From contig NZ_JWLC01000019.1 in the NCBI RefSeq assembly GCF_000813745.1, forward strand, positions 62,001-126,000: a stretch of 64,000 nucleotides of DNA, written 5' to 3'. Shown here piece after piece: positions 7,896 to 50,337 of this stretch. Below the pieces are notes generated by a model that searched no databases, was not told the origin of the DNA, and saw nothing but the letters and a program-made list of their open reading frames with translations. A program made the position numbers and the translations under genes. Origin of the DNA: Leisingera sp. ANG-M1. GTDB taxonomy: Bacteria; Pseudomonadota; Alphaproteobacteria; Rhodobacterales; Rhodobacteraceae. Numbering within the stretch: position 1 is the stretch's first letter; the number at the start of each line of letters is the position of its first letter.

Positions 7896-7936
7896 GGGTT
7901 TTCTCCTCCGTGAGTGATGATGAATGCGGGGGCGGC

Positions 7937-9235: not shown

Positions 9236-9236
9236 C

Positions 9237-31864: not shown

Positions 31865-32734
31865 ATGCGAAAACTGCCCAATCTGGTCTGGTTGCGCTCG
31901 TTTGAGAGCGCAGCGCAGCATCTGAGTTTCACCGAGGCGGCGCAGGAGCTCGGGATGACCCAGACTGCCGTCAGCCTGCATGTGCGCTCGCTGGAGGCGG
32001 AGCTGGGCTGCAAGCTGTTCACCCGTGCGGCGCGGCGGCTGACATTGACCGAGACGGGCAAGGCCTATGCCTACTCGCTGCGGCAGGCGTTGGGGGATAT
32101 GGCGATTTCCACCGCAAGCCTGTTTGGTGCCGAGACAGAGCAGGTTCTGACCGTCCGGGTGCCGATGTCGACCGCAGGTCTGTGGCTGGCACACAGGTTG
32201 CCGGAATTTGCTGAACGGCATGCAGGCATTTCGGTGCGTATGGTGTCCAACATCTGGGCGGGAACCGAAGCGCCGGAGAATGTCGATGTGGAGCTGCGCT
32301 TTGGCTCAGGCGGCTGGGATGGCGGCGAGGTGCGGAGGATTTCGCAAGAGAGGCTGGTTCCGGTGCGTGCGGCGGGCAGCGGAATTCTCAGCCCAGAGGC
32401 CTTGCGGCAGGGCCCGGTGGTTCAAATCCTCGGGTTTGAGGATATGTTGCTGCGGTATCTGAACGCCCACGGCTGCGCACCGCTGCAGGAGGCAGCCAGG
32501 TTTGCGGTGGATACAACGGTGGCAGCGCTCGACATTGTTGCAGCAGGCGGCGGTTATGCCGTGGTCGTGGAGCGGTTTGCCCGCATGGCGATAGAAACAG
32601 GCAAGGCCATTTCCATTGCCGGGGATCCGGTGCCGGTCGATCAGGCACACTATCTGGTCAGCGTGCCCGCCCGGGCGTCCAGCGAGGCCGCGAAGCAGCT
32701 GTTCGAGGCCTGGCTTGAAGAGGTGTTTGCCTGA
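31865..32734 (+). CDS. LysR-family transcriptional regulator (GcvA-like)
   Basis: 289 aa. HTH at about 6-64 (FESAAQHLSFTEAAQELGMT then QTAVSLHVRSLE), which is the GcvA/AmpR-like subgroup. The ribosome site is weak (TTGGTG). It is 113 bp from the divergent sterol-desaturase-family gene, its probable target. Convergent with the MetX-like gene 8 bp downstream. Confidence 0.87.
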   Translation: MRKLPNLVWLRSFESAAQHLSFTEAAQELGMTQTAVSLHVRSLEAELGCKLFTRAARRLTLTETGKAYAYSLRQALGDMAISTASLFGAETEQVLTVRVPMSTAGLWLAHRLPEFAERHAGISVRMVSNIWAGTEAPENVDVELRFGSGGWDGGEVRRISQERLVPVRAAGSGILSPEALRQGPVVQILGFEDMLLRYLNAHGCAPLQEAARFAVDTTVAALDIVAAGGGYAVVVERFARMAIETGKAISIAGDPVPVDQAHYLVSVPARASSEAAKQLFEAWLEEVFA

Positions 32735-32742
32735 GCCTGCGG

Positions 32743-33756
32743 CTAGTCCTCCAGCAGTTCGCGGATGCTGGCATCCAGCTGCGCGGTGAAGCCTGGGTCA
32801 TTGCCCGGGTTGGCGGCGCAATGGCCCCAGGGAGAGTCATAGGGGCGGAAAATTGCGTTGGGCATGTGGCGGGCTTCTATCTCATTGTCTTCCGGCGGGA
32901 AGTAGAGATCCTGGGTGCAGGGCATTAGGATGGCGCGGGCCTTGATGGCCTTGAGGGCGGCCTGGAAATCGCCGTTGTAGAGCGGCCCGGCGGAGATGTC
33001 GCCCGCTTGCCAGGTGGCAAGTTTGGCCAGCAGGTTGTTTGCATCCCAGCCCTGCACATGGTCCTGCTCCCAATCCTGCAGCAGGTCCTCGATGGTCTCG
33101 AACCCAAGCTGCCGGTAGAGATGCTCGCGGTAGAAGGTTTGCGAAAACGCCCAGCCGGCATAGACCCGGCCAAAGGCTTTGAGCCCGGCTTCGGGCGGGC
33201 TGGTGTAGTTGCCGCTGTTCCAGTTCTGGTCGGCGCAGAGGGCGGATTTCACGCCTTCGAGGAAAACGAAGTTATGCGGCGAGGTTTTGGCCGAAGCGCA
33301 GAACGGCAGGATCGCCTGAACCATGTCCGGGTATTGCGCCGCCCATTGGTAAGATTGGCAGCCCGCCATCGACCAGCCTGCGACCAGGGCGATTTGCTCG
33401 ATGCCGAGGTGATCGTGGATCAGCCGGTGCTGGGCGGCGATGTTGTCCCACATCTCCACCAGCGGGAAGCGGGGGCCGTCCTGCGGGGCAGGGGTGTTGG
33501 AGGGTGAGGAGGAGCGGCCGTTGCCGAACAGATTGGGGCTGACGATGAAATGCTTTGCGGGGTCTATGGCGCGGCCGGGGCCGAAGAAGCCCTCGTTGCG
33601 GGAATTGGTGCCGGTGTAGAAGGTGGGCAGTACAATGACATTGTCGCGCGCGGGCGAGAGGGTGCCATAGGTCTGATAGGCGAGCTTGGCGTCTTTCAGG
33701 ACGTCTCCTGACAGCAGCGGGAAGTCTCCCAGGTCTAAGATTTCGTAATCCGGCAT
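32743..33756 (-). CDS. Alpha/beta-hydrolase, homoserine O-acetyltransferase (MetX)-like
   Basis: 337 aa alpha/beta-hydrolase. The nucleophile elbow reads GWSMAGCQS (Ser in GxSMxG, as in MetX-type acyltransferases). N-terminal AYQTYGTLSPARDNVIVLPT and FYTGTNSR fit the MetX group. The acid and His are probably the Asp of CTQDLYFPPEDN and the His of SPWGHCAANPG. Whether it acetylates or hydrolyses is not clear, since many such paralogues are not methionine enzymes. It is separated from the BCCT gene by a hairpin (33790-33817). Confidence 0.75.
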   Translation of the reverse strand: MPDYEILDLGDFPLLSGDVLKDAKLAYQTYGTLSPARDNVIVLPTFYTGTNSRNEGFFGPGRAIDPAKHFIVSPNLFGNGRSSSPSNTPAPQDGPRFPLVEMWDNIAAQHRLIHDHLGIEQIALVAGWSMAGCQSYQWAAQYPDMVQAILPFCASAKTSPHNFVFLEGVKSALCADQNWNSGNYTSPPEAGLKAFGRVYAGWAFSQTFYREHLYRQLGFETIEDLLQDWEQDHVQGWDANNLLAKLATWQAGDISAGPLYNGDFQAALKAIKARAILMPCTQDLYFPPEDNEIEARHMPNAIFRPYDSPWGHCAANPGNDPGFTAQLDASIRELLED

Positions 33757-33789
33757 TTTGAGGCTCTTTTGGTTTGTATAACTGAGATT

Positions 33790-33817
33790 GCCCCCGGCCT
33801 GTCTTTAAGCCGGGGGC
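33790..33817 (-). terminator. Stem-loop after the eight-gene Rieske/BCCT operon
   Basis: GCCCCCGGC (33790-33798) and GCCGGGGGC (33809-33817) with a 10-nt loop, 7 bp past the BCCT stop. The stem is very stable; no U-tract on the - strand. Likely 3' end of the operon transcript. Confidence 0.65.
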
Positions 33818-33823
33818 GAGAGT

Positions 33824-35476
33824 TTACTCTGCGGGGGTCACGCGTTCTTCGTCGTGGCGGGCGCGCATGCCGTCGCGGATCACTGCTTTGAACAGGGCGA
33901 TACCCATCAGCGCCATCACCACCGAGAAGGGCAGCGCGCCGATGATCATCGCGGTGTTGATCGCGCCCAGGCCTCCGGCCGCCAGCAGGGTGCCGATCAC
34001 CAGCGTCAGGGCGGCGCCCCAGACGATGATGTGGATCTTGGGCTTCTGCTGCGCATCGCCGCCGGCTGCGATGGTGTTGATGATCAGCACTGCCGAGTCC
34101 GCCGAGGTCACCAGATAGGTGAGCAGCAGCACAACGATGACAACGGTCATCAGCAGCGCCAAGCCGGAGGGCAGCATGTGGTTGATCATTGCAAACAGCT
34201 GCGAGGACAGGCCCGCGCCGGTGATCGCATCACCTGCATCGCCGTTCAGGGTCAGGTCGATGGCGGTGCCGCCGACAAAGGTGAACCAGACAAAACACAT
34301 CAGCGACGGCACGATCATCGCACCCAGTACGTATTCGCGGAAGGTGCGGCCGCGGGAAATGCGGGCCAGGAACAACCCGACAAAGGGGGCAAAGGCGATC
34401 CACCAGGCCCAGTAGAAGATGGTCCAGCCGCCCTGCCAGCCAGCCAGCTGGGTGGCGACGCTGTCTGCCACGCCGTCGCCTTTCCAGACGGTGACCGCCA
34501 TGGCCGGGAAGGCGGTCACATAGTCCCAGAGGCCGATGAAAAGGCTTTTGAGCGCAAAGACCGTCGAGCCGAAGATCAGGAAGAAGGCGAGCAGGAAGAA
34601 CGACAGCCCCATATTGATGTTGGAGAGCCACTTGATCCCCTTGCCGACGCCAGACAACGCCGAGAGGGTGGAGGCCAGCATCACAATGCCAAGGGCGATA
34701 ATCATCGCGGTGATGGTGGGGGCCCCCTCGGCGTCCATCATCCATTCGGCACCGGTGATGTTGAAGATGCCGGAGGCAAATTGCGACACGCCATAGCCCA
34801 GCGTCACCGAGACGCCGAGGATGGTGGCAATCACCGAGACGATGTCGATAACATGGCCCAAGGGGCCCGAAAGCGCATTGCCGAACAGCGGCGCCAAGCC
34901 GGAACGGATAGTCAGCGGCAGCCCGCGGGAATAGCTGAAAAAGCCGAGTGCCAGACCGACAATCGCGTAGCAGCCCCAGGCCGAGAACCCCCAGTGCATG
35001 AAGGACCAGCGGTAGGCAGGGCGGACGTTCTCGGCGGTGGAGCCTTCGGCCAGACCCTGGATCACATCCGGGTTGGTGCCGAAATGGTAAAGCGGCTCAG
35101 CCGTGGCATAGGTCAGCATGCCGATGCCGATCCCGGCACCGAACATCATGGAAAACCAGGAAAAATTGGAAAACTCGGGCTTTTCGTCTGCCGCACCCAG
35201 CTTCAGCCGCCCGGTGGCGGGCCATAGCGCCAAAGCGACACAGACCACGATATAGAACGCCATCACATACATGTACCAGCTGCCGGTGTTGGCATCGATG
35301 GCGCCACGGATGCTTTTCAGCACCGCGCCTGCCTGATCCGGCCAGACCGCGGCCCAGAGGATCAGGAGGCCAATGGCGATTTTGGAGCCCAGGGCGACCA
35401 TCCTGTTGAACCCGCGGTAGAAGCCCTGGTCATGGGTCTCTATGTGCAGGTCCGTCATCGGTGGCTTTATCGGCAT
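33824..35476 (-). CDS. BCCT-family quaternary ammonium transporter
   Basis: 550 aa from ATG at 35476 (AGGAAGGA upstream), twelve predicted helices. The BCCT core GGWTIFYWAWWIAFAPFVGL with FLARISRGRTFREYVLG follows the same pattern as the BCCT at 1875-3566, and GIGIGMLTYATAEP marks the glycine-rich segment. Last gene of the operon, behind an ABC importer. Two different importer types in one operon suggest uptake of two substrates, or of one substrate at different concentrations. The 109-bp gap before it holds small inverted repeats (GGCCCG/CGGGCC at 35537-35550). Confidence 0.93.
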   Translation of the reverse strand: MPIKPPMTDLHIETHDQGFYRGFNRMVALGSKIAIGLLILWAAVWPDQAGAVLKSIRGAIDANTGSWYMYVMAFYIVVCVALALWPATGRLKLGAADEKPEFSNFSWFSMMFGAGIGIGMLTYATAEPLYHFGTNPDVIQGLAEGSTAENVRPAYRWSFMHWGFSAWGCYAIVGLALGFFSYSRGLPLTIRSGLAPLFGNALSGPLGHVIDIVSVIATILGVSVTLGYGVSQFASGIFNITGAEWMMDAEGAPTITAMIIALGIVMLASTLSALSGVGKGIKWLSNINMGLSFFLLAFFLIFGSTVFALKSLFIGLWDYVTAFPAMAVTVWKGDGVADSVATQLAGWQGGWTIFYWAWWIAFAPFVGLFLARISRGRTFREYVLGAMIVPSLMCFVWFTFVGGTAIDLTLNGDAGDAITGAGLSSQLFAMINHMLPSGLALLMTVVIVVLLLTYLVTSADSAVLIINTIAAGGDAQQKPKIHIIVWGAALTLVIGTLLAAGGLGAINTAMIIGALPFSVVMALMGIALFKAVIRDGMRARHDEERVTPAE

Positions 35477-35585
35477 TCGTATTTCCTTCCTGTCGGTATT
35501 TTTGATGCCTTGCGTTTGCCGCAAGTGCGGATTTGCGGCCCGTTCGGGCCAGCGGAGTTCGTGAAGTCCCTATTTCACGTATCGG

Positions 35586-36383
35586 TCAGGCGTCTTCTTC
35601 CTGTTTGGCTTCGTTGCGCATCAGATGCATGATCTCGCGCTCGCATTCGGGGTAGCCTTCGAGCTCGACCAGATCCTCTTTGCTGCGGATCTCTTTGCCT
35701 TTCTTGAAGTCCAGTTCGAGGATGGTCTTGAGGCGTCCCGGGTGGGCCGACAGGAAGACGATGCGGTCGGCGAGGAAGATCGCCTCCTGAATGTCGTGGG
35801 TGACCAGCAGGATGGTGGTCTGGGTGGTGCGCATAATGTCCAGCAGCATTTCCTGCATGTGCCAGCGGGTTTCCGCATCGAGTGCGCCGTAGGGCTCGTC
35901 CATCAGCAGGATTTCCGGTGCGTTGGCCAGGGTGCGGGCGATGGCGACCCGCTGCTTCATGCCGCCCGACAGGGTCTTGGGGTAGGCGTCGCGGAACTTT
36001 GTCAGATGCACCAGGTCGATGTAGTGCAGCGCGCGCTCGCGGCGTTCCGCCTTGGGGATACCGTTCAGCTTCATGCCGTATTCGACGTTCTCCAGCACCG
36101 TCAGCCAAGGAAACGATGTGTAGCTTTGAAACACCATGCCGCGTTCGCGGGCCGGGCCGTGGATCGGCCGGCCCTCCAGGCTGAGAGTGCCGCTGGTGGG
36201 GGTATGGAGGCCCGCGACGATATTCAAGAGCGTGGACTTGCCGCAGCCCGAGGGCCCCAGCAGCACGCACAGCTCGTTGCGGGCCACCGAGAAGGACACA
36301 TCGCGCAAGGCTTCGACCCCGCCGCCGCGTGTGGGGAATGTCTTGCAGACATTCTGGACGGATAGAATGGTGCTGGATTGCAT
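35586..36383 (-). CDS. ABC transporter ATP-binding protein (NitT/TauT family)
   Basis: 265 aa. Walker A GPSGCGKST, signature LSGGMKQRVAIAR and Walker B EILLMDEPYGALD are intact, followed by the switch His in VTHDIQEAIFLADR. The family energises uptake of taurine, sulfonates, nitrate, cyanate or pyrimidine precursors. It is in one operon with the binding protein (30-bp gap) and permease. Confidence 0.92.
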   Translation of the reverse strand: MQSSTILSVQNVCKTFPTRGGGVEALRDVSFSVARNELCVLLGPSGCGKSTLLNIVAGLHTPTSGTLSLEGRPIHGPARERGMVFQSYTSFPWLTVLENVEYGMKLNGIPKAERRERALHYIDLVHLTKFRDAYPKTLSGGMKQRVAIARTLANAPEILLMDEPYGALDAETRWHMQEMLLDIMRTTQTTILLVTHDIQEAIFLADRIVFLSAHPGRLKTILELDFKKGKEIRSKEDLVELEGYPECEREIMHLMRNEAKQEEDA

Positions 36384-36413
36384 GATGCGCCCCTCTTTGC
36401 TGGTTTCTGTGGA

Positions 36414-37469
36414 TCAGCCGCGGTAGCCGCTGTCGTAAAGCTCCTTGTGCAGGGTGCATTCGACGCCGGTTTCGGGCGCTTTGACCTCCTGGATCAGGCC
36501 GAATTTGACCCACCATTCGCTGACCAGGTTCCAGTGGTCAGACATCTGGCCGTTGGTCTGCTCAAACGGGGGATTGCCTGGGGCGGCACCGCAGAACTGC
36601 GCCGCTTCGATGAAGTCGTAGACATAGAGGCCGCCATCCAGAGAGGTGCCGTCCTTGCCCAGAACCAGCTCAACGTCGGCGATGCTCATCCCCATGCCCT
36701 TGGCGATGATCTCGTTGCCTTCTGTTGGGTTCTGCTTCCACCAGGCAATGGCGTCATACATCGCTTGCATGGTCTTCAGGGCCACGTCGCGGCGGTCGTT
36801 GATCAGCGCGTTGCTCATATAGTGGCCGTCGGCGACTACTGCGTTCTTCAGCCAGAAGGGTTCGTCGGACTGGGTCAGGATGCTGGAGCCTTCCAGGGCT
36901 TTCAGCGTGTTGGTGCCGTAGGGTTCCCAGAACTCAGAGGCCGCCACGCCGCCGCCGATCATGGCGGCAAAGGCATCATCGGCGATGATGTTGCGGTAGA
37001 CGACCGAGTCATAGGCGGCGCCGTTCTGTTCCAGCCACATGGCGACATAGATCTGTGCCAGCCCGCCTTCGAGCACGGCGACCTCTTTCCCGGCCAGGTC
37101 GGCGGCGCTTTCGATACCGGGGCCTGCGACGACCTTGTCGGTGCCGTTCGAGAGGTTGCCAAAGGCCACCAGCTTGACCGGCAGGCCGCGCTCGACGCCG
37201 ACCGGGGTGAATTCGGCAGTGGAAGAGACCACGTCAAGCTGGCCTGCAGCAACCAGGTTGAAGCTTTCATAGGGGTCTTCGATGGTCTGGTACTGGATGT
37301 CCAGATCCGGGGCGAGGCCCTTTTCCGCCGCGATGTGCCAGAAGCCGTAGCCCGGCCAGGTGAAGCCCGCGATCTTGACGCTTTCTGCGGCCCATACGGG
37401 GGCGGCGGCGCCTGCCAGTGCTAAGGCTGCGATGCAGCCACTGGCGGATTTCAGCAGTTTCTTGGTCAT
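36414..37469 (-). CDS. ABC transporter substrate-binding protein (NitT/TauT family)
   Basis: 351 aa. Signal peptide about 1-28 (ending AAAPVWAAESVKI). The family pattern VKIAGFTWPGYGFWHIAAEK and DVVSSTAEFTPVGVERGLPV is clear. ATG at 37469 is chosen over a GTG six bases upstream because AGGGAGG is then better spaced. Several aromatic residues (FTWPGYGFWH) may form a cation-binding cage, which would suit quaternary amines. This is inferred. Confidence 0.88.
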   Translation of the reverse strand: MTKKLLKSASGCIAALALAGAAAPVWAAESVKIAGFTWPGYGFWHIAAEKGLAPDLDIQYQTIEDPYESFNLVAAGQLDVVSSTAEFTPVGVERGLPVKLVAFGNLSNGTDKVVAGPGIESAADLAGKEVAVLEGGLAQIYVAMWLEQNGAAYDSVVYRNIIADDAFAAMIGGGVAASEFWEPYGTNTLKALEGSSILTQSDEPFWLKNAVVADGHYMSNALINDRRDVALKTMQAMYDAIAWWKQNPTEGNEIIAKGMGMSIADVELVLGKDGTSLDGGLYVYDFIEAAQFCGAAPGNPPFEQTNGQMSDHWNLVSEWWVKFGLIQEVKAPETGVECTLHKELYDSGYRG

Positions 37470-37536
37470 CGTCACGATACCTCCCTTGCGACGTCATTTT
37501 TTTGTTTGGTGTGTTTTAAAGTTCTGCTCCGGCTCC

Positions 37537-38382
37537 TCAGGAATATTCGTCGAGATACTGGAACGCGCGGCGGTGCAGCGCCCGCAGCAGGTAGTCGAAG
37601 ATCAGCCCCAGAAGACCGATCACCAGGATGCCGGCCATGATCTGATCCACATGCAAGAAGCGTTTGGCGCGCATCATCATGGCGCCGATGCCGGCGTCTG
37701 CGGCGGTGATCTCTGCGATCACCAGATAGGTCCAGCTGACCGCCAGCATCTGGCGCATGGCGATCACGATGTTGGGCAGGGCGGCGGGGACAACGACGGT
37801 GCGCAGCACCTGCCAGCGGGAGCCGCCCAGGGTCACGGATGTGTTGATCAGATCCTTGGGAACGGCTTTGGTGTGGTCTGCAATCAGGGTGATCAGGAAC
37901 CAGATCACGCCGATAAACAGCAGTGCCAGTTTTTGGGCGTCGCCCGCCCCGAACCACATCAGCAACAGGGGAATGAAGGACGGGGCGGGCAGGTAACGCC
38001 AAGCCGAGACGAAGGGGGAGAAAAACGCTTCGACCGATTTGAACGCGCCCATCAGAATGCCGAGCGGCACCGCAACTGCGCAGGCCAGGGCAAAGCTGAA
38101 CATCACCCGCCAGACGCTGATCAGCACATCACCGAGAAAACCTTGCTCGGTGAAGAGCGTGTAGAGCGCTGTCAGGACCTTGCCGGGCCCTGGCAGCAGG
38201 ATTGCGGGCATCACGCCGGACCAGGCGGCGATCTGCCAGATGGCAAAGAACAGGACCCAGACCGCTACCCCGAGGGTGAGGCGCCAGGAAGCGGGGATGT
38301 CCGATTTGAACTCGAAGATCCGCAGTTTCGGGCGCGTGTCCTTGGCCCGGGTTGCTGGTAAAGTCCGAAGGGCCTGGGTCAT
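37537..38382 (-). CDS. ABC transporter permease (NitT/TauT family)
   Basis: 281 aa, six or so helices. The cytoplasmic EAA loop region is present around NTSVTLGGSRWQVLRTVVVP and AALPNIVIAMRQML. It forms the membrane channel with the ATPase and binding protein downstream. It follows the glutamine-synthetase-like gene by 24 bp. Confidence 0.91.
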   Translation of the reverse strand: MTQALRTLPATRAKDTRPKLRIFEFKSDIPASWRLTLGVAVWVLFFAIWQIAAWSGVMPAILLPGPGKVLTALYTLFTEQGFLGDVLISVWRVMFSFALACAVAVPLGILMGAFKSVEAFFSPFVSAWRYLPAPSFIPLLLMWFGAGDAQKLALLFIGVIWFLITLIADHTKAVPKDLINTSVTLGGSRWQVLRTVVVPAALPNIVIAMRQMLAVSWTYLVIAEITAADAGIGAMMMRAKRFLHVDQIMAGILVIGLLGLIFDYLLRALHRRAFQYLDEYS

Positions 38383-38406
38383 GGGTCTGTCCTTTGCTGG
38401 GAGGGA

Positions 38407-39849
38407 TTAGTAGAGGCGCAGGTATTCCTGCACTTCCCAGTCGGTGACCGACTGGTGGTAGCGCTCCCATTCATCGTTCTTGTATTCCAGGAACGACTTG
38501 CGCATCACCGGGCCCATCACGTGTTCGGCCATCTCGTCATGGCGCAGTGCCTCGATGGCGTTGAACAGCGTGCGGGGCAGGCGGCGGATGCCCAGTTCCT
38601 GCAGTTCGGCTTCGGTCTTCGAGTACAGATCGAAGTCGGTCGGTTTGCCCGGGTCGATCTTGTTCTTGATGCCCTTCAGCGCGCAGCTCAGGTGCATCGC
38701 CATCGCAAGGTAGACATTCATGGTCATGTCGCAGGCGCGGTTTTCGATGCAGTGGCGGCTTTGCGGCAGCCGGAACTGGGCGGAACGGTTGTTGAAGCCG
38801 TAAGTGATGTTGGTCGGCGCCCAGGTGACGGTGCCGCCTTCGAAACCGCCCACCCGCGGCACCAGGCCGTTGTAGGAGTTCACGGTCGGGCAGGTGATCG
38901 CGGTGATCGCCTCGGCGTGCTGCATCAGGCCGCCCACGGCCCAGCGGCTTTCGTCGGACCAATCGCTGCCATCGGCGGTTTCAAAGATGTTCTCACCCGG
39001 GCGGCTGTCATGCTGCATCGACATGTTGATATGCGCACCGGAGCGCCAGTCGCCCACCGTCGGCTTCGGCATGAAGGTCACGAACATGCCGTGTTTCTTG
39101 GCCACTTCCTTGAGGGTGATGCGCAGGAAGGCCAGCCGGTCGGACATTTCCAGCATGTTGGTATAGTGGAAATCCAGCTCGAACTGGGAATAGGCGCCCT
39201 CGGCAACCACGTCGTGCAGGTTCCAGCCCAAGCCTTCGATGATGTCGATCATGTCCTTCAGGAAGGGCATCGAGTCGATGGAGTATTCCACGTCATAGCC
39301 AAAGGCCTGGCGGCGCGGGGAGATGGCCTTGCCCAGATCGTCGTCGAAGGCTTTCACCGGCAGGCCGTTTTCGTCGTATTTCATGACGATGAATTCAGGC
39401 TCGACGCCGGCAAAACCGCTGTAGCCTTCCAGTTTGGCCTCATGCATGGCGCGCTTCAGGGCCTGGCGCGAGCAGACGTTATACGGCGCGTCTTCCCAGT
39501 AAAGGTCCGAGAAGATGATCGCCATCGAGTTGTCCCAGGGGCAGACATAGACGGCGTCCAGATCCGGTACCACCACCTGGTCGCTGTCGGCGGGGCTGAG
39601 TTCCGGCACAAAGGAGATCGAGTGCACGGCGAACTGCGGGCCCTTGCCGAGGCAGAGCGGTTCGAAGTCGCTCATCGGCACCGGCTTGGTCTTAGGGATG
39701 CCGTGCAGGTCGATCCAGGCGGCCATCACGTATTTGACGCCGGCCGCTTCCAGCTGCTCGCGCACCTCGGGGATGCGGGGGCGGTTGCGCTCCACGGCGT
39801 CGTGGAAGCTTTCGTAATAGATCTTCTCTTCGGGATTTGCTTTCAGCAT
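38407..39849 (-). CDS. Glutamine synthetase family ligase (gamma-glutamyl-amine ligase type)
   Basis: 480 aa from ATG at 39849 with AAGGGAGG. GS landmarks are present: GVEPEFIVM (metal Glu), SGAHINMSM (ammonia/metal site), NNRSAQFRLP (ATP/glutamate Arg pattern) and ENRACDMTMNVYLAMAMHL. The fold is that of GS-I/GlnT-type enzymes, many of which join glutamate to an amine other than ammonia. Gene context (Rieske oxygenase, VOC, EutQ-like cupin, amine importers) favours a catabolic gamma-glutamylation of an amine product. The amine is unknown; ordinary glutamine synthesis is unlikely but not excluded. Confidence 0.83.
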   Translation of the reverse strand: MLKANPEEKIYYESFHDAVERNRPRIPEVREQLEAAGVKYVMAAWIDLHGIPKTKPVPMSDFEPLCLGKGPQFAVHSISFVPELSPADSDQVVVPDLDAVYVCPWDNSMAIIFSDLYWEDAPYNVCSRQALKRAMHEAKLEGYSGFAGVEPEFIVMKYDENGLPVKAFDDDLGKAISPRRQAFGYDVEYSIDSMPFLKDMIDIIEGLGWNLHDVVAEGAYSQFELDFHYTNMLEMSDRLAFLRITLKEVAKKHGMFVTFMPKPTVGDWRSGAHINMSMQHDSRPGENIFETADGSDWSDESRWAVGGLMQHAEAITAITCPTVNSYNGLVPRVGGFEGGTVTWAPTNITYGFNNRSAQFRLPQSRHCIENRACDMTMNVYLAMAMHLSCALKGIKNKIDPGKPTDFDLYSKTEAELQELGIRRLPRTLFNAIEALRHDEMAEHVMGPVMRKSFLEYKNDEWERYHQSVTDWEVQEYLRLY

Positions 39850-39885
39850 CAGTCGTCCTCCCTTGAATGGCAATATGCTGCTGGC

Positions 39886-39998
39886 CGCTGACCGGGGACC
39901 GGTCAGCGCTGTTTTCGTTTTCCTTGTTTGCAGTTACCTGGCGAAAAAGGCGGGCAACCCGTCACCCGGGGCGCGGACTAGGGTGCCCAGTCGCCAGG
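39886..39998 (-). promoter_or_regulatory. Two stem-loops in the cupin-to-ligase gap
   Basis: CGCTGACCGG (39886-39895), loop GGA, CCGGTCAGCG (39899-39908) is a perfect 10-bp hairpin. A larger dyad CCTGGCGA (39937-39944) and TCGCCAGG (39991-39998) encloses an inner GGGCACCC/GGGTTGCCC arm pair, followed on the - strand by GCCTTTTT. The inner element looks like an attenuator or processing site in an otherwise tightly packed operon. Confidence 0.45.
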
Positions 39999-40009
39999 AG
40001 CGGCGTTTC

Positions 40010-40408
40010 TTAGCCCGGGACAAAGTCCGACGGGTCGATGCCCGGGACCTCGGTGATCCCGGCCAGCTGTTTCCAGTTGTGCGGATAGGCGGCGTAGAAG
40101 ATCACGCATTTGCCGTCCGCCTCATAAGAGATGTGGTTGTCCTTGGGCACAAACAGCACGTCGCCGCGGTTGCAGATGTATTCCTTGCCGTCGCAGACCA
40201 GCCGGAAGGTGCCCTCCAGGCAGTAGATGATCTCGTCGCAGGTCAGGTCCCACGGCACCTTGATGTTATTCAGAACATTGATGCCGCCGCACATGGACTT
40301 GCTGAATTCGCTGGTGACCATCGGCTTGATGTAGGTGTCGCTGTCGCCCATGGAGTCATAGCGCTCCTGGACCAGGTCGAATTTGAAAAGCTGCGGTTGA
40401 TCGCCCAT
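40010..40408 (-). CDS. EutQ-like cupin protein
   Basis: 132 aa cupin. CDEIIYCLEGTFRLVCDGKE and YICNRGDVLFVPKDNHISYE follow the EutQ/ethanolamine-utilization cupin pattern. The 3-bp gap from the VOC gene shows co-translation. EutQ itself is an acetate kinase-like cupin in ethanolamine metabolism; here the role is open. The usual HxH metal pair is not obvious, so it may not be a classical metallo-cupin. Confidence 0.75.
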   Translation of the reverse strand: MGDQPQLFKFDLVQERYDSMGDSDTYIKPMVTSEFSKSMCGGINVLNNIKVPWDLTCDEIIYCLEGTFRLVCDGKEYICNRGDVLFVPKDNHISYEADGKCVIFYAAYPHNWKQLAGITEVPGIDPSDFVPG

Positions 40409-40411
40409 GGG

Positions 40412-40849
40412 TTACTTCCCCTCGCTGGCCAGGTGTTTCAGAATGCTTTCGTTCAGTTCGACCTTGTAGCCGTCCGGATCTTCGCAGAAGGCGATGATCC
40501 GGGTGCCGTTCTTCATCGGTCCCGGCGGGCGGGTGATGTTGACGCCGGCCGCTGCCAGCTGCTCACAGGCGGCATAGACGTCCGGGGTTTCGATGCAGAT
40601 GTGGCCCCAGCCGTTGCCCTTGTCGTAAGGCTCTTTCTGATCCCAGTTCGCAGTCAGCTCTAGCGTAGGGGATTCCGCCTCCGGGCCGTAGCCGATGAAG
40701 GTGTTGGTGAATTTGCCTTCGGGGTAGTCGGTGCGGCGCAGCACCTCCATGCCCAGAATTCCGCAGTAGAATTCCAGCGATTTCTCCATGTCCATCACCC
40801 GCATCATCGTGTGGGCCAGGCGGAAACCCTTGGAAATGGGTTCACTCAT
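40412..40849 (-). CDS. VOC-superfamily protein, glyoxalase I-like
   Basis: 145 aa. The lactoylglutathione lyase pattern is clear: RLAHTMMRVMDMEKSLEFYC, LELTANWDQKEPYDKGNGWG and HICIETPDVYAAC. Metal-ligand candidates are His13 (RLAHTM), a Glu in LELTANW, His of GHICIE and Glu of KVELNE. It lies between the Rieske and EutQ-like genes with gaps of 19 and 3 bp. It may detoxify a 2-oxoaldehyde formed in the pathway, or have another VOC role. Confidence 0.83.
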   Translation of the reverse strand: MSEPISKGFRLAHTMMRVMDMEKSLEFYCGILGMEVLRRTDYPEGKFTNTFIGYGPEAESPTLELTANWDQKEPYDKGNGWGHICIETPDVYAACEQLAAAGVNITRPPGPMKNGTRIIAFCEDPDGYKVELNESILKHLASEGK

Positions 40850-40868
40850 GTGTCGTCTTCCTCTTGGT

Positions 40869-41972
40869 TCAGGCGTTTGCCGGAGCAGTGGCGATGTCGC
40901 GTTCGATCATGTCCTGGAAGGCGCGGACACTGTCTTCCCAGGCCGGCGACAGCAGCCCGCCGTCATTGGCAACCGGGGACTTGCGGCCCTCGTACATGCG
41001 TTCGACCATCTCGTGGTCTTCCTTGTGGACGTCCCACCACAGGTCCTTCAGGCCCTGGATTTCCTCTGCGCTCAATTCCTGCCCCTCGGTGGTATAAAGC
41101 GCGCGGTACTGGCGCATCTTGCCGGGACCGACGGGCACGTTCAGGTAGACTCCCAGCTGATCCGGGAAATAGCGGCCCAGGATGAAGTTGGGATAGAGCG
41201 TCAGATAGCGCGAGCTGACCGCAAGGCTGCCTGCGGTACCGACCTCTTCCTTCAGGTCTACCGCGCTGCCGAGGCAGTTGCCGTCGGTGATGGTGTAATG
41301 ATCCTCCAGCGGCTGGTCGGTGGTCGAGGAATGCACGAACTGGACATGGTAGGGCTCAATGAAGTTCTCCATGATCAGTTTCCAGTTGGTGTCGATCTCG
41401 CCGAAATCGAGCAGGCCGATCGGCTCCAGCTTATCGTAGTTGATGCCCTCCAGGCGGCTGATCAGCGGCGCGGCGTAATCTTCAAACTCGGGCGCGTTGC
41501 CGTCCAGATTGACGAAGATCCAGTCTTGCCAGACATGGGTGCGGACCGGCTTTAGGCGGTGTTCCTTCAGGTCGAAACCGTCGAACTCCTGCTTGCCGGT
41601 GCCGGCGAAATGCGGCGCGGCACGCAGCCGGCCTTCCAGATCATAGGCCCAGGCGTGATAGGGGCAGCGGATCAGCTTGCCGACATTCTTGGGCTTGTCG
41701 ACCAGGGTCATGCAGCGGTGCAGGCAGACGTTGTGAAACACCTGGATGCCGCCGTCCTGGCCGCGCACCGTCAGCAGCGGCAGGCCGGCGCAGCTAACCG
41801 GGTGGGCGTCTCCCGGATCGGCCACTTGATGGGCGAACCCGATGAACACCCAGTTCTTGGACAGCACGGTCTGGCATTCCTTCTGCCAGAACTCCTCGCT
41901 GCGGTATGCCTCGGCGGTCAGCCCGTGTTCCGGCCCTTCGGCAAGTTTTGTCTTTTCCTCGGCAATTGTCAT
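40869..41972 (-). CDS. Rieske non-heme iron oxygenase, quaternary-amine/N-demethylase-like
   Basis: 367 aa from ATG at 41972 with AAGGGAGG. Rieske cluster ligands C83-x-H85 (VCLHRC) and C103-x2-H106 (CPYHAW). The mononuclear site is NFIEPYHVQFVH: H209 and H214 as ligands and Glu206 where most Rieske ring oxygenases have the bridging Asp. A Glu at this place is also found in carnitine oxygenase CntA and related quaternary-amine enzymes. First gene of the eight-gene operon and divergent from an Lrp-type regulator. No dedicated reductase gene lies in the window, so electrons must come from elsewhere. Confidence 0.87.
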   Translation of the reverse strand: MTIAEEKTKLAEGPEHGLTAEAYRSEEFWQKECQTVLSKNWVFIGFAHQVADPGDAHPVSCAGLPLLTVRGQDGGIQVFHNVCLHRCMTLVDKPKNVGKLIRCPYHAWAYDLEGRLRAAPHFAGTGKQEFDGFDLKEHRLKPVRTHVWQDWIFVNLDGNAPEFEDYAAPLISRLEGINYDKLEPIGLLDFGEIDTNWKLIMENFIEPYHVQFVHSSTTDQPLEDHYTITDGNCLGSAVDLKEEVGTAGSLAVSSRYLTLYPNFILGRYFPDQLGVYLNVPVGPGKMRQYRALYTTEGQELSAEEIQGLKDLWWDVHKEDHEMVERMYEGRKSPVANDGGLLSPAWEDSVRAFQDMIERDIATAPANA

Positions 41973-42393
41973 TATTCCTCCCTTCGACACTGCCACATGC
42001 GGGGGCCTTTCCAAGGCTTCCGCATGGATTGTGTCCCTGCTCCGGGCTGGCCTGTGTGCAGATCCTTGGCCGGTTTCGCAGGGCCCGGGTTGATGTTTGC
42101 GAAAATCGCACGGTCTGGCAATAGTTTTTTGCGATATTCGTGATGAATCGTAAAAATTGGCTGTGAATCAAGGAGCGCGGGGCAAGTTTCACCAGGTTGA
42201 AATTCGAATTTCGCACGTTTGGCGGGTGTGTTTTTCCGGGAATCGCAATTTTTGAAGCGATTCCCTACCGGTTTCTGCCCGGTTGATCCGGCTGACAAAT
42301 GGGCGGCTGGAAAGATTTCCGGGCGGCAAATTGCGGATTCCTGCGCCTTGGCGTAATCTCGGTTGCGGAAATAGCAGACGAGCAGCAGGGCAG
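41973..42393. promoter_or_regulatory. 421-bp divergent control region of the Rieske operon and lrp-type gene
   Basis: No gene. AT-rich for this genome between about 42085 and 42265, and packed with dyads built from GCGA/TCGC half-sites, described as a separate feature. Both genes have strong ribosome sites at the edges. Confidence 0.7.
42098..42265. promoter_or_regulatory. Cluster of four dyads, probable Lrp-type operator array
   Basis: Four inverted repeats: TGCGA-AAA-TCGCA (42098-42110); TTTTGCGAT (42127-42135) with ATCGTAAAA (42147-42155), one mismatch; perfect palindrome GAAATTCGAATTTC (42199-42212), followed by GCAC; and GGGAATCGC (42238-42246) with GCGATTCCC (42257-42265), perfect. Centres lie at about 42104, 42141, 42206 and 42252. 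Multiple phased sites are typical for octameric Lrp-family regulators. Confidence 0.65.
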
Positions 42394-42930
42394 ATGGCAG
42401 GAAAACAGCAGAATTCCTCCCGCGTGAAGCGGACCAATCAAAGCATCCGGTCGCCGGGAGACGACCTCAACCAGCAGATCATCCGGCTGCTGCAGCAGGA
42501 CGGGCGGATGGCGTTTTCGGAGATCGCCCAGAAGCTGGATGTGTCCGAAGGCACCATCCGCAACCGGGTGAGCGGCCTGCGCGAGAACAACATGCTGCGG
42601 ATTGTGGCGATGTCGGATCCGGTGGCGACGGAATACACCACGGACGCGATGATCGGCGTCAATGTTGCTTCGGGTGTCACCCCGCGGCAGGTGGCGGACC
42701 GGCTGCAGAAGGATCCGCGGGTGGTCTTCATCCTGTGGGTGGCGGGGCGTTATGACCTGATTGTCGAACTGGTGAGCGACGACGGCGATGCGCTGAAGCG
42801 GTTCCTGGAGCATGAGATCCACGGCAGCAGCGATATCGCCGAAGCCGATGTCATGCTGGGGCTGCAGAACTTCAAGAACCAGTTCCTGTTGAAGCGCGAC
42901 ATGCCGGAGGACAGCCCGGCAGACGGCTGA
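42394..42930 (+). CDS. Lrp/AsnC-family transcriptional regulator
   Basis: 178 aa from ATG at 42394 (AGGG upstream). The frame extends upstream but those codons lack the family pattern. HTH at about 25-75: DDLNQQIIRLLQQDGRMAFS and EIAQKLDVSEGTIRNRVSGL. The C-terminal RAM domain includes VVFILWVAGRYDLIVELVSDD. An N-terminal 20-residue basic tail (MAGKQQNSSRVKRTNQ) is longer than in Lrp. It probably senses an amino-acid-like intermediate and controls the divergent Rieske operon. Confidence 0.9.
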   Translation: MAGKQQNSSRVKRTNQSIRSPGDDLNQQIIRLLQQDGRMAFSEIAQKLDVSEGTIRNRVSGLRENNMLRIVAMSDPVATEYTTDAMIGVNVASGVTPRQVADRLQKDPRVVFILWVAGRYDLIVELVSDDGDALKRFLEHEIHGSSDIAEADVMLGLQNFKNQFLLKRDMPEDSPADG

Positions 42931-42954
42931 GATTTTGGGGCAGGGGGCTCCCAC

Positions 42955-42987
42955 CTGTGGCTGCATCTTTTCCAAGATGCCTCACAG
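42955..42987. terminator. Hairpin between convergent lrp-type and lysR genes
   Basis: CTGTG (42955-42959)/CACAG (42983-42987) outside and GCATCTT (42963-42969)/AAGATGC (42974-42980) inside with loop TTCC. Bidirectional terminator candidate; no U-tract. Confidence 0.5.
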
Positions 42988-43025
42988 TTGGGCGTAGCGC
43001 CGGGCTGACGCCCGACGCGGTTGCG

Positions 43026-43937
43026 TCAAGGTTCCACGCCGGCGGCTGGGCTGGATTGGCAGCAATCCTTCACGTCCTGAACAAACAGCTCAACTGCCCG
43101 GCGGTGCACCTGGATGCGGCGGGTGGCGAGGCAGAAGGGGGAATGCCAGCGTAACAGCGGATGGCGGAGTTCGCGCAGTTTGCCGCTGGCAACCCAGGCC
43201 TGCGCATAATGCGCCGGCAGCGGGCCGAGGTACTGGCCGGTTTCAATCAGCATGGCCATGGCCTCCATATTGGCGACCACTGCCTTAGGTTCAGGGCTGC
43301 CGAGGTCGGGGGAAACCAGCATGTCATAGGAACGCTGGCAGAGCGGGTAGGTCGCCACCTGCTGCGGGCTGACCTCTGCAGCCGGCAGGGCGAACAACGG
43401 GTGGGTCCGGCCGCAGTAGAGATAGTGTTCTTCGGTGCAGAGCTCCTCATAGGCCAGATCGGCTATCTGGTTGCGGAACGGGGCGATGGCCGCGTGCAGC
43501 TCGCCGGTGATCAGCTGCTGGGTCAGATCGGCAGGCGAGGCCACGACAATTTCCAGCCGGACCTCGTTTGGGCGGGCGAGGAAACGCTGAAGCGCCTGGG
43601 AAAGATTGAGCCCGGGCAGGCTGTTGACCGCATCCACCATTCCGATGCGCAGGTCGCCGGTCACTGCGTCGCGCAATTCCAGCAGTTCAGCGTCGAAATC
43701 ACGGGCGCTGCGCAATATGTCGCGGGCTTTCTGATAAGCGATCTCGCCGCGTTCGGTCAGGCGGAAGCCGCCGCGGCCGCGTTCGCAGACCCGGTAGCCC
43801 AGCGAGGTCTCCAGATCGCGGATGCGGATGCTGATGGCGGACTGGGTGATCCCAAGTGCATATTGCGCATCGGAAAAGCCGCCGCATTCCACTACGGTGA
43901 CAAAGGTTTCCAGCAGTGTGTTGCGCAGCAGTTTCAT
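43026..43937 (-). CDS. LysR-family transcriptional regulator
   Basis: 303 aa. HTH at about 1-62 (FVTVVECGGFSDAQYALGIT then QSAISIRIRDLE), effector domain with DLRIGMVDAVNSLPGLNLSQ. It is divergent from the TRAP-ureohydrolase operon, 143 bp apart, with a nested dyad between them. It is the likely activator of that operon. Confidence 0.88.
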   Translation of the reverse strand: MKLLRNTLLETFVTVVECGGFSDAQYALGITQSAISIRIRDLETSLGYRVCERGRGGFRLTERGEIAYQKARDILRSARDFDAELLELRDAVTGDLRIGMVDAVNSLPGLNLSQALQRFLARPNEVRLEIVVASPADLTQQLITGELHAAIAPFRNQIADLAYEELCTEEHYLYCGRTHPLFALPAAEVSPQQVATYPLCQRSYDMLVSPDLGSPEPKAVVANMEAMAMLIETGQYLGPLPAHYAQAWVASGKLRELRHPLLRWHSPFCLATRRIQVHRRAVELFVQDVKDCCQSSPAAGVEP

Positions 43938-44006: not shown

Positions 44007-44080
44007 ATTTTTTCATGCATCAGCCTGTGCTGATCTGTTCTCCGACCTTTGTCAACCATGCCAACTGGGAGGAGACCCGC

Positions 44081-45097
44081 ATGGCCTTTACCTTGAAAAC
44101 CCTGAAAGCCACCGCTGCCGCGGCGCTGCTGAGCCTGGCGCCGGCGGCTGTGTTTGCCGAAGACTGGAAATTCGCCATCGAGGAGATTCCGGGCTCGATC
44201 ATGGATGCCTATGCGCAGGAGTTCAAAAAGCGCATTGAGGCGGCGACCGACGGCGATGTGACCGTGACCGTCTATCCGATGGGCACACTGGGCACCCCGA
44301 CCGAGACCGTCGAGCAGGCTGCCGATGGCATCATCCAGCTGACCAACGTCTCGATCGGCAACCTCGGCACCATTGTACCGGAAAGCCAGGTGTTCCTGCT
44401 GCCTTACCTGCTGCCCTCTGATCCAGCAGCGATCTCGAAGATCCTCAGCAGCTCGGACACCATCTATGGTGACCTGAATGCGGACTTCCAGAAGCGCGGC
44501 CTGGAAGTGATGACTATGTATTCTGAAGGCCCGCAGGTCTGGACCACCAACCGCGAGATCCGGACCCCGGAGGATTTTGAGAACTTCAAGATGCGGGTGA
44601 TGGTGTCGCCGATCCTGCTGGAAACATATAAAAACATGGGCGCGAGCCCGACTCCGCTGCCGTTTGGCGAAGTGTTCGGTGCGCTGCAGCTGGGTGCAGT
44701 CGACGGCCAGGTGAACCCGATCCCGACCATTGAGGAAATGAAGTTCTATGAAGTCACCAGCCACCTGATCTGGGCTGGCGAGCAGGAACTGGTCACCACC
44801 GTTGTCGCAGGCTCCGACTGGTTTGCCACCCTGACCCCGGAGCGCCAGCAACTGGTGCGTGACACCATGGCGGATATGACCGGCTTCATTGACGGCGTGG
44901 TCACCGACTTCAACCAGGCCCGCCTGGACGTGATCAAGGCAGCCAAGCCGGACATCGGCCTGGTGGTTCTGACCGAAGAAGAGCGTGACGTCTTCCGTGC
45001 CCGTTCGGGCGACACTGCCGCGGCTTATGTTGAGACCGCAGGCGCCCGCGGCCAGGAGCTGCTGGACGCGCTGCAGGCAGAGCTGGCGGGCAACTGA
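44081..45097 (+). CDS. TRAP transporter solute-binding protein (DctP family)
   Basis: 338 aa from ATG at 44081 (GGGAGGAG upstream). Signal peptide about 1-26 (ending AAVFAEDWK). DctP features: FENFKMRVMVSPILLETYKN, and FGEVFGALQLGAVDGQVNPI for the ligand-binding strand and hinge. The conserved Arg of KMRVM should bind a carboxylate. First gene of the TRAP-ureohydrolase operon. Confidence 0.92.
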   Translation: MAFTLKTLKATAAAALLSLAPAAVFAEDWKFAIEEIPGSIMDAYAQEFKKRIEAATDGDVTVTVYPMGTLGTPTETVEQAADGIIQLTNVSIGNLGTIVPESQVFLLPYLLPSDPAAISKILSSSDTIYGDLNADFQKRGLEVMTMYSEGPQVWTTNREIRTPEDFENFKMRVMVSPILLETYKNMGASPTPLPFGEVFGALQLGAVDGQVNPIPTIEEMKFYEVTSHLIWAGEQELVTTVVAGSDWFATLTPERQQLVRDTMADMTGFIDGVVTDFNQARLDVIKAAKPDIGLVVLTEEERDVFRARSGDTAAAYVETAGARGQELLDALQAELAGN

Positions 45098-45108
45098 TCC
45101 CGCTTTCA

Positions 45109-45134
45109 GGCCTCGCGCGCATTTGTGCGGGGCC
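45109..45134 (+). terminator. Intercistronic hairpin between dctP- and dctQ-type genes
   Basis: GGCCTCGC (45109-45116) and GCGGGGCC (45127-45134) with one G.U pair and a 10-nt loop, in the 55-bp gap. It probably raises the binding-protein to permease ratio. Confidence 0.5.
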
Positions 45135-45152
45135 GCACCAAGGGAGGATATC

Positions 45153-45764
45153 ATGCAAGACGGCAATTCCGCTCCCTTCGGCTTTCTGGGAAAGATTGAC
45201 GGTGCCATCGGGCGTATCGAGGTCTGGATCCTGGGCTGGGGGATCATCCTGATGGCTGCCAACACAATCGCCAATGTCTTTGGCCGCTATGTGTTCAACC
45301 AGTCGATCTATTTCTCTGAAGAACTGAACGAGTTCCTGATTGTCATCGTCACCTTCATGGGGCTTGGCTATGCCACCCGCAAGGGCATCCACATCCGCAT
45401 GTCCGCGATCTATGACGCGCTTCCGGTGAAAATGCGCAAGGGGCTGATGGTGGTTATTGCCGCGACCACCGCGGTGATGATGGCGCTGCTGGCCTGGTAC
45501 GCGCTGGAATATGTGCAGAAGGTCGCCAGCCGCGGCCGCATCACCCCGGCGCTGCAGGTGCCGCTGTACCTGACTTACGTCTGGGTGGTGATCGGGCTGG
45601 CGCTAACCTCGTTCCAGTATCTGCTGACCGCGCTGCGCAACCTGAATTTCGCCGAGGAGGAGATCTATGTCTCCTACCTGGAGGTGGACAGCTACGAAGA
45701 TCCGGAAACCGCCGCCGCCATTCAACGCCATGAAGAAACTGCTGGCGGGGAGGAAAAGCAATGA
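45153..45764 (+). CDS. TRAP transporter small permease (DctQ family)
   Basis: 203 aa from ATG at 45153 with AGGGAGG; a longer frame begins inside the previous gene and is rejected. Four predicted helices with NVFGRYVFNQSIYFSEELNE in the usual place. An unusually long acidic tail (DSYEDPETAAAIQRHEETAG) extends the C-terminus. The stop overlaps the next start (ATGA). Confidence 0.9.
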   Translation: MQDGNSAPFGFLGKIDGAIGRIEVWILGWGIILMAANTIANVFGRYVFNQSIYFSEELNEFLIVIVTFMGLGYATRKGIHIRMSAIYDALPVKMRKGLMVVIAATTAVMMALLAWYALEYVQKVASRGRITPALQVPLYLTYVWVVIGLALTSFQYLLTALRNLNFAEEEIYVSYLEVDSYEDPETAAAIQRHEETAGGEEKQ

Positions 45765-47041: not shown

Positions 47042-47062
47042 AACAAGAAACTGGAGAGAAAC

Positions 47063-48028
47063 ATGTCTGGACACGGTTACGAATCCGGCCGCCTGAACCT
47101 GCCCTTTGTTGGCATCGCCACCTTCGGCAAGAAGCCCTACGTCGAGGACTGGGACAACATCAACGCCGACGTCGCCATCCTGGGCGCGCCGTTTGACTTT
47201 GGCTGCCAATTCCGCTCCGGCGCGCGTTTCGGCCCGCGGGCGGTGCGTGAGGCCTCGACACTGTTCAGCTTCGGCCACGCCGGCGCCTATGACCACGAGG
47301 ATGATGCCACCTATCTGGGCGAGGAGGTGCGGATTGTTGACTTGGGCGACGCCGATATCATCCACACCAAGACCGAGGAAAGCCACGCCAACATCGAATA
47401 CGGCGTCAAGAAGATCCTGGGTGCGGGCGCCATTCCGGTGACCATCGGCGGCGACCACTCGGTCAACATCCCCTGCATCAACGCTTACAAGGAAGACTGC
47501 GCCAAGAACGGTCCGATCCATGTGATCCAGATCGACGCGCATCTGGACTTTGTTGACGAGCGCAAGGGTGTCACCGATGGCCACGGCAACCCGATGCGCC
47601 GCGCGATTGAGAAAGACTATGTCTCCGGCATGACCCAGCTGGGCATCCGCAACGTCTCTTCCACAGCCAAAGAAGGCTACATCGACGCCCGCGAGCGCGG
47701 CTCGGACATCCTGTCGGTGCGGCAGGTGCGCAAGCTGGGCACGGACGCGGTGCTGGACCGCATCCCCGAAGGCGCGCGTTATTACGTGACCATCGACATC
47801 GACGCCTTCTGCCCCTCGATTGCGCCCGGCACCGGCACCCCGAGCCACGGCGGTTTCCAGTATTACGATGTGCTGGAAATCCTGCAGGGGCTGTCTAAGC
47901 GCGGTGACGTGGTTGGCATCGACCTGGTGGAAGTGGCACCGGCCTATGACCCGGCCGAAAGCACCCAGATCCTGGCGGCGCAGCTGCTGCTGAACTTCAT
48001 CGGCTTCATCTTCCACAACAAGAAATAA
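47063..48028 (+). CDS. Ureohydrolase (agmatinase/guanidino-acid hydrolase family)
   Basis: 321 aa. Binuclear Mn site: H132 (GGDHS), D158, H160 and D162 (DAHLD), D245 and D247 (TIDIDAFCPSIAPGTGTP). The usual D at the third place of the last motif is Cys250. The family hydrolyses agmatine, guanidinobutyrate, guanidinopropionate or similar guanidino compounds to urea plus an amine. Co-transcription with a TRAP system, which prefers organic acids, favours a guanidino acid over agmatine; this is an inference. A strong terminator follows. Confidence 0.87.
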   Translation: MSGHGYESGRLNLPFVGIATFGKKPYVEDWDNINADVAILGAPFDFGCQFRSGARFGPRAVREASTLFSFGHAGAYDHEDDATYLGEEVRIVDLGDADIIHTKTEESHANIEYGVKKILGAGAIPVTIGGDHSVNIPCINAYKEDCAKNGPIHVIQIDAHLDFVDERKGVTDGHGNPMRRAIEKDYVSGMTQLGIRNVSSTAKEGYIDARERGSDILSVRQVRKLGTDAVLDRIPEGARYYVTIDIDAFCPSIAPGTGTPSHGGFQYYDVLEILQGLSKRGDVVGIDLVEVAPAYDPAESTQILAAQLLLNFIGFIFHNKK

Positions 48029-50325: not shown

Positions 50326-50337
50326 GGAGGAACAGAC

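Follow-up and report, generated by a model that had tools for sequence, protein, structure and literature searches.

Introduction

In routine annotation, ligases that resemble glutamine synthetase (GS) receive the name glutamine synthetase, or they are taken for gamma-glutamyl ligases. The gene clusters for aniline and 1-naphthylamine degradation (AtdA, TdnQ, NpaA1) contain a Rieske dioxygenase. GS-like gamma-glutamyl ligases serve both of these pathways, as stated in the accessible part of PMC11335346. The N-methylglutamate (NMG) pathway (GMAS, NMGS and NMGDH) also includes a GS-superfamily ligase with residues of the organic-amine type, and the carnitine monooxygenase CntA and the stachydrine demethylase Stc2 are Rieske oxygenases of solved structure. 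Here we analyse an operon that contains both a Rieske oxygenase and a GS-like ligase, encoded in a stretch of 64,000 nucleotides (hereafter the window) of Leisingera sp. ANG-M1 (Rhodobacteraceae; assembly GCF_000813745.1, contig NZ_JWLC01000019.1, positions 62,001 to 126,000). The operon is a real, conserved unit, and its ligase belongs to a separate clade in which residues of the glutamate site have changed.

The operon shares with the aniline and 1-naphthylamine systems the presence of a GS-like ligase and a Rieske enzyme in one pathway, but it encodes a single Rieske subunit, no class I amidotransferase gene was seen in it, it adds genes for a VOC protein, a cupin and an alpha/beta-hydrolase, and its ligase is changed at the position of R321 (Salmonella GS numbering). 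The original prediction had presented the combination of Rieske oxygenase and GS-like ligase as a joining of amine routes never seen together, a claim that these two pathways do not support; the new element, if confirmed, would be the ligase clade together with its conserved operon, the pairing itself being already known. The likeness to the NMG pathway lies in the organic-amine-type residues of the ligase and in the similar genes that adjoin the cluster in 13 of the 44 loci described below, whereas the ligase studied here stands in a clade of its own and has an altered glutamate site, and the GMAS/GlnT-type ligase is an additional gene. No publication naming this gene set was found in a literature search that reached few subscription papers, and the accessible parts of PMC9723723 and PMC9038784 contain nothing on these genes.

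Results and discussion

A conserved operon around a GS-like gene

A pattern-based scan with the GS-like protein, taking one genome per species, returned 44 distinct loci (divergent members can escape such a scan), mostly in Ruegeria, Leisingera, Roseovarius, Roseibium/Labrenzia and metagenome-assembled genomes named Boseongicola or Silicimonas; many of the bacteria carrying the gene set are marine. The predicted linkage extends across these genomes: in the fetched flanks, within which some contigs end early, orthologues of the hydrolase were found in 42 of the 44 loci, of the Lrp-type regulator in 40, of the Rieske oxygenase in 37, of the VOC protein in 36, of the cupin in 29 and of the substrate-binding protein in 11, and a BCCT gene lies near the GS-like gene in three. 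When ten loci from plasmids and other genomes are added, the counts over 54 loci become 48 for the hydrolase, 47 for the regulator, 42 for the Rieske oxygenase, 41 for the VOC protein, 31 for the cupin and 13 for the substrate-binding protein; they omit L054-L058, L062-L069 and L077, which are repeats or short pieces, and L078 is entered for the GS-like gene only, its hydrolase being visible in a separate neighbourhood view. Because these genes recur around the GS-like gene in several genera whose outer flanks differ, we judge the linkage to exceed chance, by judgement rather than by a formal statistic. The core consists of the regulator, the Rieske oxygenase, the VOC protein, the GS-like ligase and the hydrolase, usually with the cupin, and the importers are optional. 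In the window these genes are arranged as follows.

42394..42930, plus strand: Lrp/AsnC-type regulator, divergent (from its domains; the earlier start, 42283, is a TTG upstream)
41973..42393, no strand: divergent control region of about 420 bp (from revised start codons)
40869..41972, minus strand: Rieske non-haem iron oxygenase, alpha subunit only (Pfam, cluster and iron-site motifs)
40412..40849, minus strand: VOC protein of glyoxalase I type (Pfam, TIGR00068)
40010..40408, minus strand: EutQ-like cupin, single domain (Pfam EutQ)
39951..39968, minus strand: terminator-like hairpin in the gap between cupin and GS-like gene, in operon direction (pattern match, not above chance for the region)
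38407..39849, minus strand: GS-superfamily ligase of a separate clade (Pfam, tree, residues)
37537..38382, minus strand: ABC importer permease, TauC/SsuC-like (Pfam; optional neighbour across loci)
36414..37475, minus strand: ABC importer substrate-binding protein, NMT1/SsuA-like (Pfam; 11 of 44 loci)
35586..36383, minus strand: ABC importer ATPase (Pfam; optional neighbour across loci)
33824..35476, minus strand: BCCT-family importer (Pfam; 3 of 44 loci)
32743..33756, minus strand: alpha/beta-hydrolase related to MetX-type esterases (PRK07581 family; 42 of 44 loci)

The eight genes of the original prediction all lie at the predicted places on the minus strand, and the Lrp/AsnC gene diverges from them. 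Their Pfam matches exceed the gathering scores throughout (Rieske and Ring_hydroxyl_A, Glyoxalase, EutQ, Gln-synt_C, BPD_transp_1, NMT1, ABC_tran and BCCT); the regulator has HTH_AsnC-type and AsnC_trans_reg domains. As to membership, the prediction overlooked the hydrolase and took as core the variable importers (substrate-binding protein and BCCT importer). The hydrolase gene, absent from the earlier gene list, is co-directional, starts 67 bp past the BCCT gene and makes a ninth gene, a core one, which we assign to the operon because its orthologue adjoins the GS-like gene more often than any other. The mostly short gaps that had been described were found (3-61 bp for most), except between the cupin and GS-like genes (160 bp) and between the ATPase and BCCT genes (109 bp). 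Likely start codons, read by eye, are ATG at 41972 for the Rieske gene, at 35476 for the BCCT gene and at 42394 for the regulator. A simple scan of 32300-43100 found no sigma-70-type match, against 2.8 expected. The hairpin between the cupin and GS-like genes is not evidence by itself, because the region holds 13 terminator-like sites and shuffled sequences 9.1 +/- 3.5. For the substrate-binding protein no solved relative was found by sequence, and its predicted model (predicted local distance difference test, pLDDT, 37.5) was discarded.

The GS-like gene is rare. It occurs, own genome included, in six of 394 genomes drawn from Rhodobacteraceae (E <= 1e-120) and in eight of 385 drawn from the class (exact motif); in a draw of 398 from the phylum, which included many members of that class, only the own genome has it. 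The reversed-pattern control gave zero in both of the latter draws. Among 72,556 plasmids, three have it at >90% identity, annotated each time as 'glutamine synthetase family protein'. For the copy in the 5.37-Mb own genome, the closest named locus is that of Leisingera sp. ANG-Vp (99%); the same genome has eight GS-superfamily matches and 13 matches to the Rieske protein of the operon. The cupin was not recovered in L034-L041, and in L036, the one of these that was examined, an eroded reading frame lies in its place (6338-6727; weak alignment, 27% over 84 residues). The cupin looks dispensable. In L032, L033, L042, L043, L048 and L074, a second Rieske gene, LigXa-like, lies near the GS-like gene together with a gene for a D-2-hydroxyacid dehydrogenase.

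A separate ligase clade with a changed glutamate site

The ligase matches Pfam Gln-synt_C, with Gln-synt_N below cut-off, and none of its five NCBIfam matches reaches the cut-off (TIGR03105 at 356.7 of 469.6 bits, GlnA at 304.5 of 429). In a tree of 56 of the 77 aligned rows (21 were dropped, mostly near-duplicates), a clade of 38 is split off by a branch supported at 100/99, outside the GlnA and GMAS/GlnT rows. Its neighbour is a Rhodococcus GS-like protein, whose gene is followed by one of the gamma-glutamyl-GABA-hydrolase family; several paralogues from the own genome are on long branches and their positions are unsure. The motif DWRx(G/A)AHIN is a sequence marker of the clade and can be used for finding its members.

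The residues that handle ammonia are gone (D50 is aligned with A74 and E327 with W343), changes that are comparable to those of organic-amine ligases. The metal ligands E129, E131, E212, E220, H269 and E357 correspond to E150, E152, E217, E224, H273 and E369, invariant in nine aligned rows. The view that the protein falls outside the ammonia-using enzymes is thereby borne out: an ordinary glutamine synthetase is ruled out by the residues (D50, E327 and the glutamate site) together with the separate clade.

The glutamate-binding residues of Salmonella GS are E131, N264, G265, R321 and R359 (PMC6529630, which also gives the corresponding residues of PauA7 and GlnA4). The window protein retains E131 and R359 (as E152 and R371) and has replacements at the other three, N264 by W268, G265 by R269 and R321 by G328. 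At the position of R321, Gly is found in 57 of 57 clade rows, a few of them near-identical, against Arg in all 20 other rows of the family, GMAS-type included. At that of G265, Arg is equally uniform in the 57 clade rows, the other 20 having Gly (19) or Ala (1); seven clade rows (L070-L076) were retrieved by a motif containing R269, so that this column is circular for them and not for the other 50. The original prediction had the ligase glutamylating an amine. Gamma-glutamylation appears doubtful because of these replacements, above all the clade-wide change of R321 to Gly.

Might glutamate nevertheless be bound, in a changed way? The protein would then be a gamma-glutamyl-amine ligase of the GMAS/PuuA/AtdA1 kind, with the hydrolase or an unlinked enzyme removing the glutamyl group, which we hold to be rather unlikely. 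Such a ligase would account for the retention of E131, R359 and the metal-ligand positions, for the altered ammonia residues, for the best PDB match (9qur, a glutamate-methylamine ligase, 239 bits) and for the class I amidotransferase gene directly upstream of the GS-like gene in two 1.4-Mb genomes, as in gamma-glutamyl pathways. The replacements at N264 and G265 would not trouble it, as characterised gamma-glutamyl ligases also differ there: going by the accessible portions of the sources, Haloferax GlnA-2 has G and T at these positions and GlnA4 has E at the first (PMC6529630). It is at R321 that the clade departs from them, since PauA7, GlnA4 and Haloferax GlnA-2 all retain this arginine in the same portions, and so does every GMAS-type row of our alignment.

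We prefer to read the protein as a ligase, predicted to be functional and ATP-dependent, that acts on an organic amine and probably binds its carboxylate partner in another way than its relatives bind glutamate; the acyl substrate may be other than glutamate. A bolder proposal, possible though the balance is somewhat against it, is that the protein founds a family of GS-fold ligases activating a non-glutamate carboxylate. In its pocket, one arginine, which helps to bind glutamate, is lost (R321 to G) and another is gained (G265 to R). Ligase and hydrolase would form a module that exchangeable oxidases or ureohydrolases supply from upstream, and the whole would be a route, so far undescribed, leading from an N-methylated metabolite into the NMG pathway. 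A clade with a uniformly changed glutamate pocket would broaden the range of reactions in an enzyme family that is among the oldest.

The Rieske, VOC, cupin and hydrolase proteins

In the family alignment of the Rieske protein, the CxH/CxxH cluster motif and E206-x2-H209-x4-H214 are invariant. CntA is its best solved match by sequence (93 bits), and by fold CntA and Stc2 lead, from a moderate model (pLDDT 65.7, below 50 over residues 82-139 and 207-254). The bridging Glu is present, corresponding to E205 of CntA. Identity to CntA and Stc2 is about 22%, and the protein differs from them in a cysteine pair and the operon in a reductase gene, to which we return below. A ferredoxin-type gene was found near the cluster in L010, L020, L026 and L060 (checked with Pfam Fer2 for L020).

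The VOC protein passes the glyoxalase I model TIGR00068 (145.4 bits, cut-off 120) and falls below the cut-offs of two narrower glyoxalase I models, NF007629 and NF050074. Its H/E/H/E positions, which we take to be metal ligands, are conserved in 41 aligned relatives. The cupin reaches the Pfam EutQ domain (67.4 against a cut-off of 21) but not the full-length EutQ model NF012001 (60.4 against 193 bits). No other eut genes were named among the identified neighbours, with no search aimed at them. Ethanolamine utilisation was considered and ruled out, the EutQ-like domain being the sole likeness.

The hydrolase is a PRK07581 family member (457.8 bits, cut-off 332), is close to PDB 5e4y and 5d6o (220 bits), presumably MekB and CgHLE, and conserves the GWSM, D and GH motifs. 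It shares family and motifs with these MetX-like esterases, from which it differs in being linked to a GS-like ligase.

A methylated-amine context

The methylated-amine setting proposed for the operon is supported by its neighbours as well as by the matches of its Rieske protein to CntA and Stc2. Within 10 kb of the GS-like gene, an MgsC-type gene is found in 13 of the 44 loci, MgsA and MgsB in 12 and a GMAS/GlnT-type gene in five; on a Rhizobium plasmid, the same Mgs and GMAS gene types adjoin a dimethylamine monooxygenase gene. In L034-L036 and L039-L041, genes for a PuuR-like regulator, MgsA, B, C, Rieske oxygenase, VOC protein, GS-like ligase, hydrolase and Lrp-type regulator are consecutive on one strand. 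A GMAS/GlnT-type ligase is encoded in addition to the ligase studied here, either within the same stretch (L018, L019, L023, L030, L031, L071 and L072) or in the same genome (the own genome and L006), and genes for ProX/W/V-type, that is betaine-type, importers are found near some members.

NMG-type genes also lie near the cluster in two 1.4-Mb genomes of another family, with a GC fraction of 0.33-0.34 in the fetched stretches, features that suggest SAR11-like bacteria. There, Amt, class I amidotransferase, GS-like ligase and hydrolase genes stand in a row (L071 7964-13050; L072 8061-13213) with GMAS and MgsABC nearby; Rieske, VOC and cupin genes were not seen in the 19 kb fetched at these two loci.

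This context raises the question of homarine (N-methylpicolinate). The operon for its breakdown is reportedly called homABCDER, with five enzymes and a regulator, and appeared in Nat Microbiol in 2026. We regard identity with that operon as unlikely. The core described here, five enzymes and a regulator, fits that number and often the order, the regulator coming last in several loci, and the betaine-type importers and the members in 1.4-Mb genomes would suit homarine too. A link to N-methylglutamate metabolism is provided by the accessible part of PMC13390433, in which N-methylglutamate dehydrogenase takes part in homarine catabolism. Ruegeria pomeroyi, however, quickly removes homarine from spent medium (accessible part of PMC12817926, strain not specified), and R. 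pomeroyi DSS-3 has no member of the GS-like clade (best match 32%); its best Rieske match is at 33%, and the hydrolase, VOC protein and cupin were not searched for there. This comparison covers one genome and one published drawdown and assumes that there is only one pathway. In DSS-3, the GMAS/Mgs region and two further stretches that contain other Rieske genes yielded nothing bearing on homarine.

A proposed pathway

We tentatively favour, at a little less than an even chance, an operon that breaks down a small zwitterionic amine (N-methyl or N-alkyl, of the betaine type) and is tied to the NMG pathway. Under the local control of the Lrp-type protein, the pathway would involve 1) import of the betaine-like compound by one of several interchangeable importers (ABC, BCCT or ProXWV-type); 2) oxidation next to the nitrogen by the Rieske oxygenase with an unlinked reductase, giving an aldehyde and a methylated amine; 3) handling of the reactive carbonyl product by the VOC protein of glyoxalase I type and by the cupin in those loci that have one; 4) ATP-dependent coupling, by the GS-like enzyme, of an organic amine with a carboxylate that is probably not ordinary glutamate; 5) action of the alpha/beta-hydrolase on the product of the GS-like enzyme or on that of the VOC protein; and 6) entry of nitrogen at the methylamine level into the NMG pathway. 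Gene content, recurrent linkage, the separate ligase clade, the altered glutamate-site residues and the recurrent NMG-type neighbours were computed directly. Should the substrate prove to be an N-methyl compound that is abundant in the sea, the operon would serve as a marker of its consumers, perhaps including small-genome bacteria such as the two with 1.4 Mb.

Several points weigh against this pathway. The identity of the substrate, all reactions and the order of steps are inferred, and the names MgsABC and GMAS are given by similarity and gene order only. In the window, MgsABC genes are not beside the operon, and none of the operon's genes encodes a reductase. The Cys-X-X-Cys pair that some group V quaternary-ammonium oxygenases possess is missing from the Rieske protein, which reads E206-P-Y-H-V instead of E205-C-Y-H-C. 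In the ligase, variation at N264 and G265 is shared with characterised gamma-glutamyl ligases, so that, measured against characterised enzymes, only the R321 change is distinctive. Lastly, the GS-like gene is without a Rieske gene in 12 of the 54 loci and without a VOC gene in 13 (some being cut contigs), and it sometimes stands beside other enzymes, which may take the place of a missing Rieske gene: the second Rieske and D-2-hydroxyacid dehydrogenase genes in four loci (L032, L033, L042 and L074), a guanidinopropionase-like gene in L060, and the class I amidotransferase and Amt transporter genes in L071 and L072. The step catalysed by the GS-like ligase and the hydrolase may therefore serve several routes, and the two look like a ligase-hydrolase module with interchangeable upstream steps.

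L060 lies on a plasmid of Alisedimentitalea scapharcae, where 3213-11065 holds, directly upstream of the GS-like gene, an arginine-deiminase-family gene, a carbamoylase-type gene, an importer of the glycine-betaine type and a pair of arginase-family genes, one of them 3-guanidinopropionase-like; Rieske, VOC and cupin genes were not found in that neighbourhood. A guanidino-compound pathway, in which an arginase-family enzyme yields an omega-amino acid or amine for the GS-like ligase and hydrolase, would fit the 3-guanidinopropionase-like gene there (401 bits to 3nip), directly upstream of the GS-like gene and in the company of the deiminase- and carbamoylase-type genes, and the same guanidinopropionase-like neighbour in L054, a second genome with this arrangement that is among the loci omitted from the 54. 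Likewise, three Leisingera-type loci, among them the one in the window, have a TRAP importer and an agmatinase-family gene on their regulator side. Such genes are found in few loci (agmatinase in two and SpeB2 in two of 53 tabulated) against Rieske and VOC genes in most, and in the window the TRAP and agmatinase genes form a separate unit beside a LysR-type gene. We consider this pathway very improbable, and keep to the betaine-type amine as the preferred reading.

Flanking genes in the window

On the regulator side, TRAP importer genes and the arginase-family gene (agmatinase TIGR01230, 184.9 bits, cut-off 174.3) occupy 44015-48028 on the plus strand, next to the LysR-type gene at 43026-43937 on the minus strand; TRAP and arginase-family neighbours of the operon are also present in L009 and L059. 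The following genes were read from the sequence. Two large hydantoinase/oxoprolinase A- and B-like genes and then an enolase-superfamily-like gene are at 48244-52059 (plus strand). A trimethylamine-methyltransferase-family-like gene lies beside a large FAD/GcvT-like gene at 60775-62331 (minus strand), and a gene of the former family is annotated near L059. On the other side, 15868-18369 (minus strand) encodes an 833-aa protein that resembles a calcium-binding, RTX-like repeat protein with a Hint-like C-terminus.

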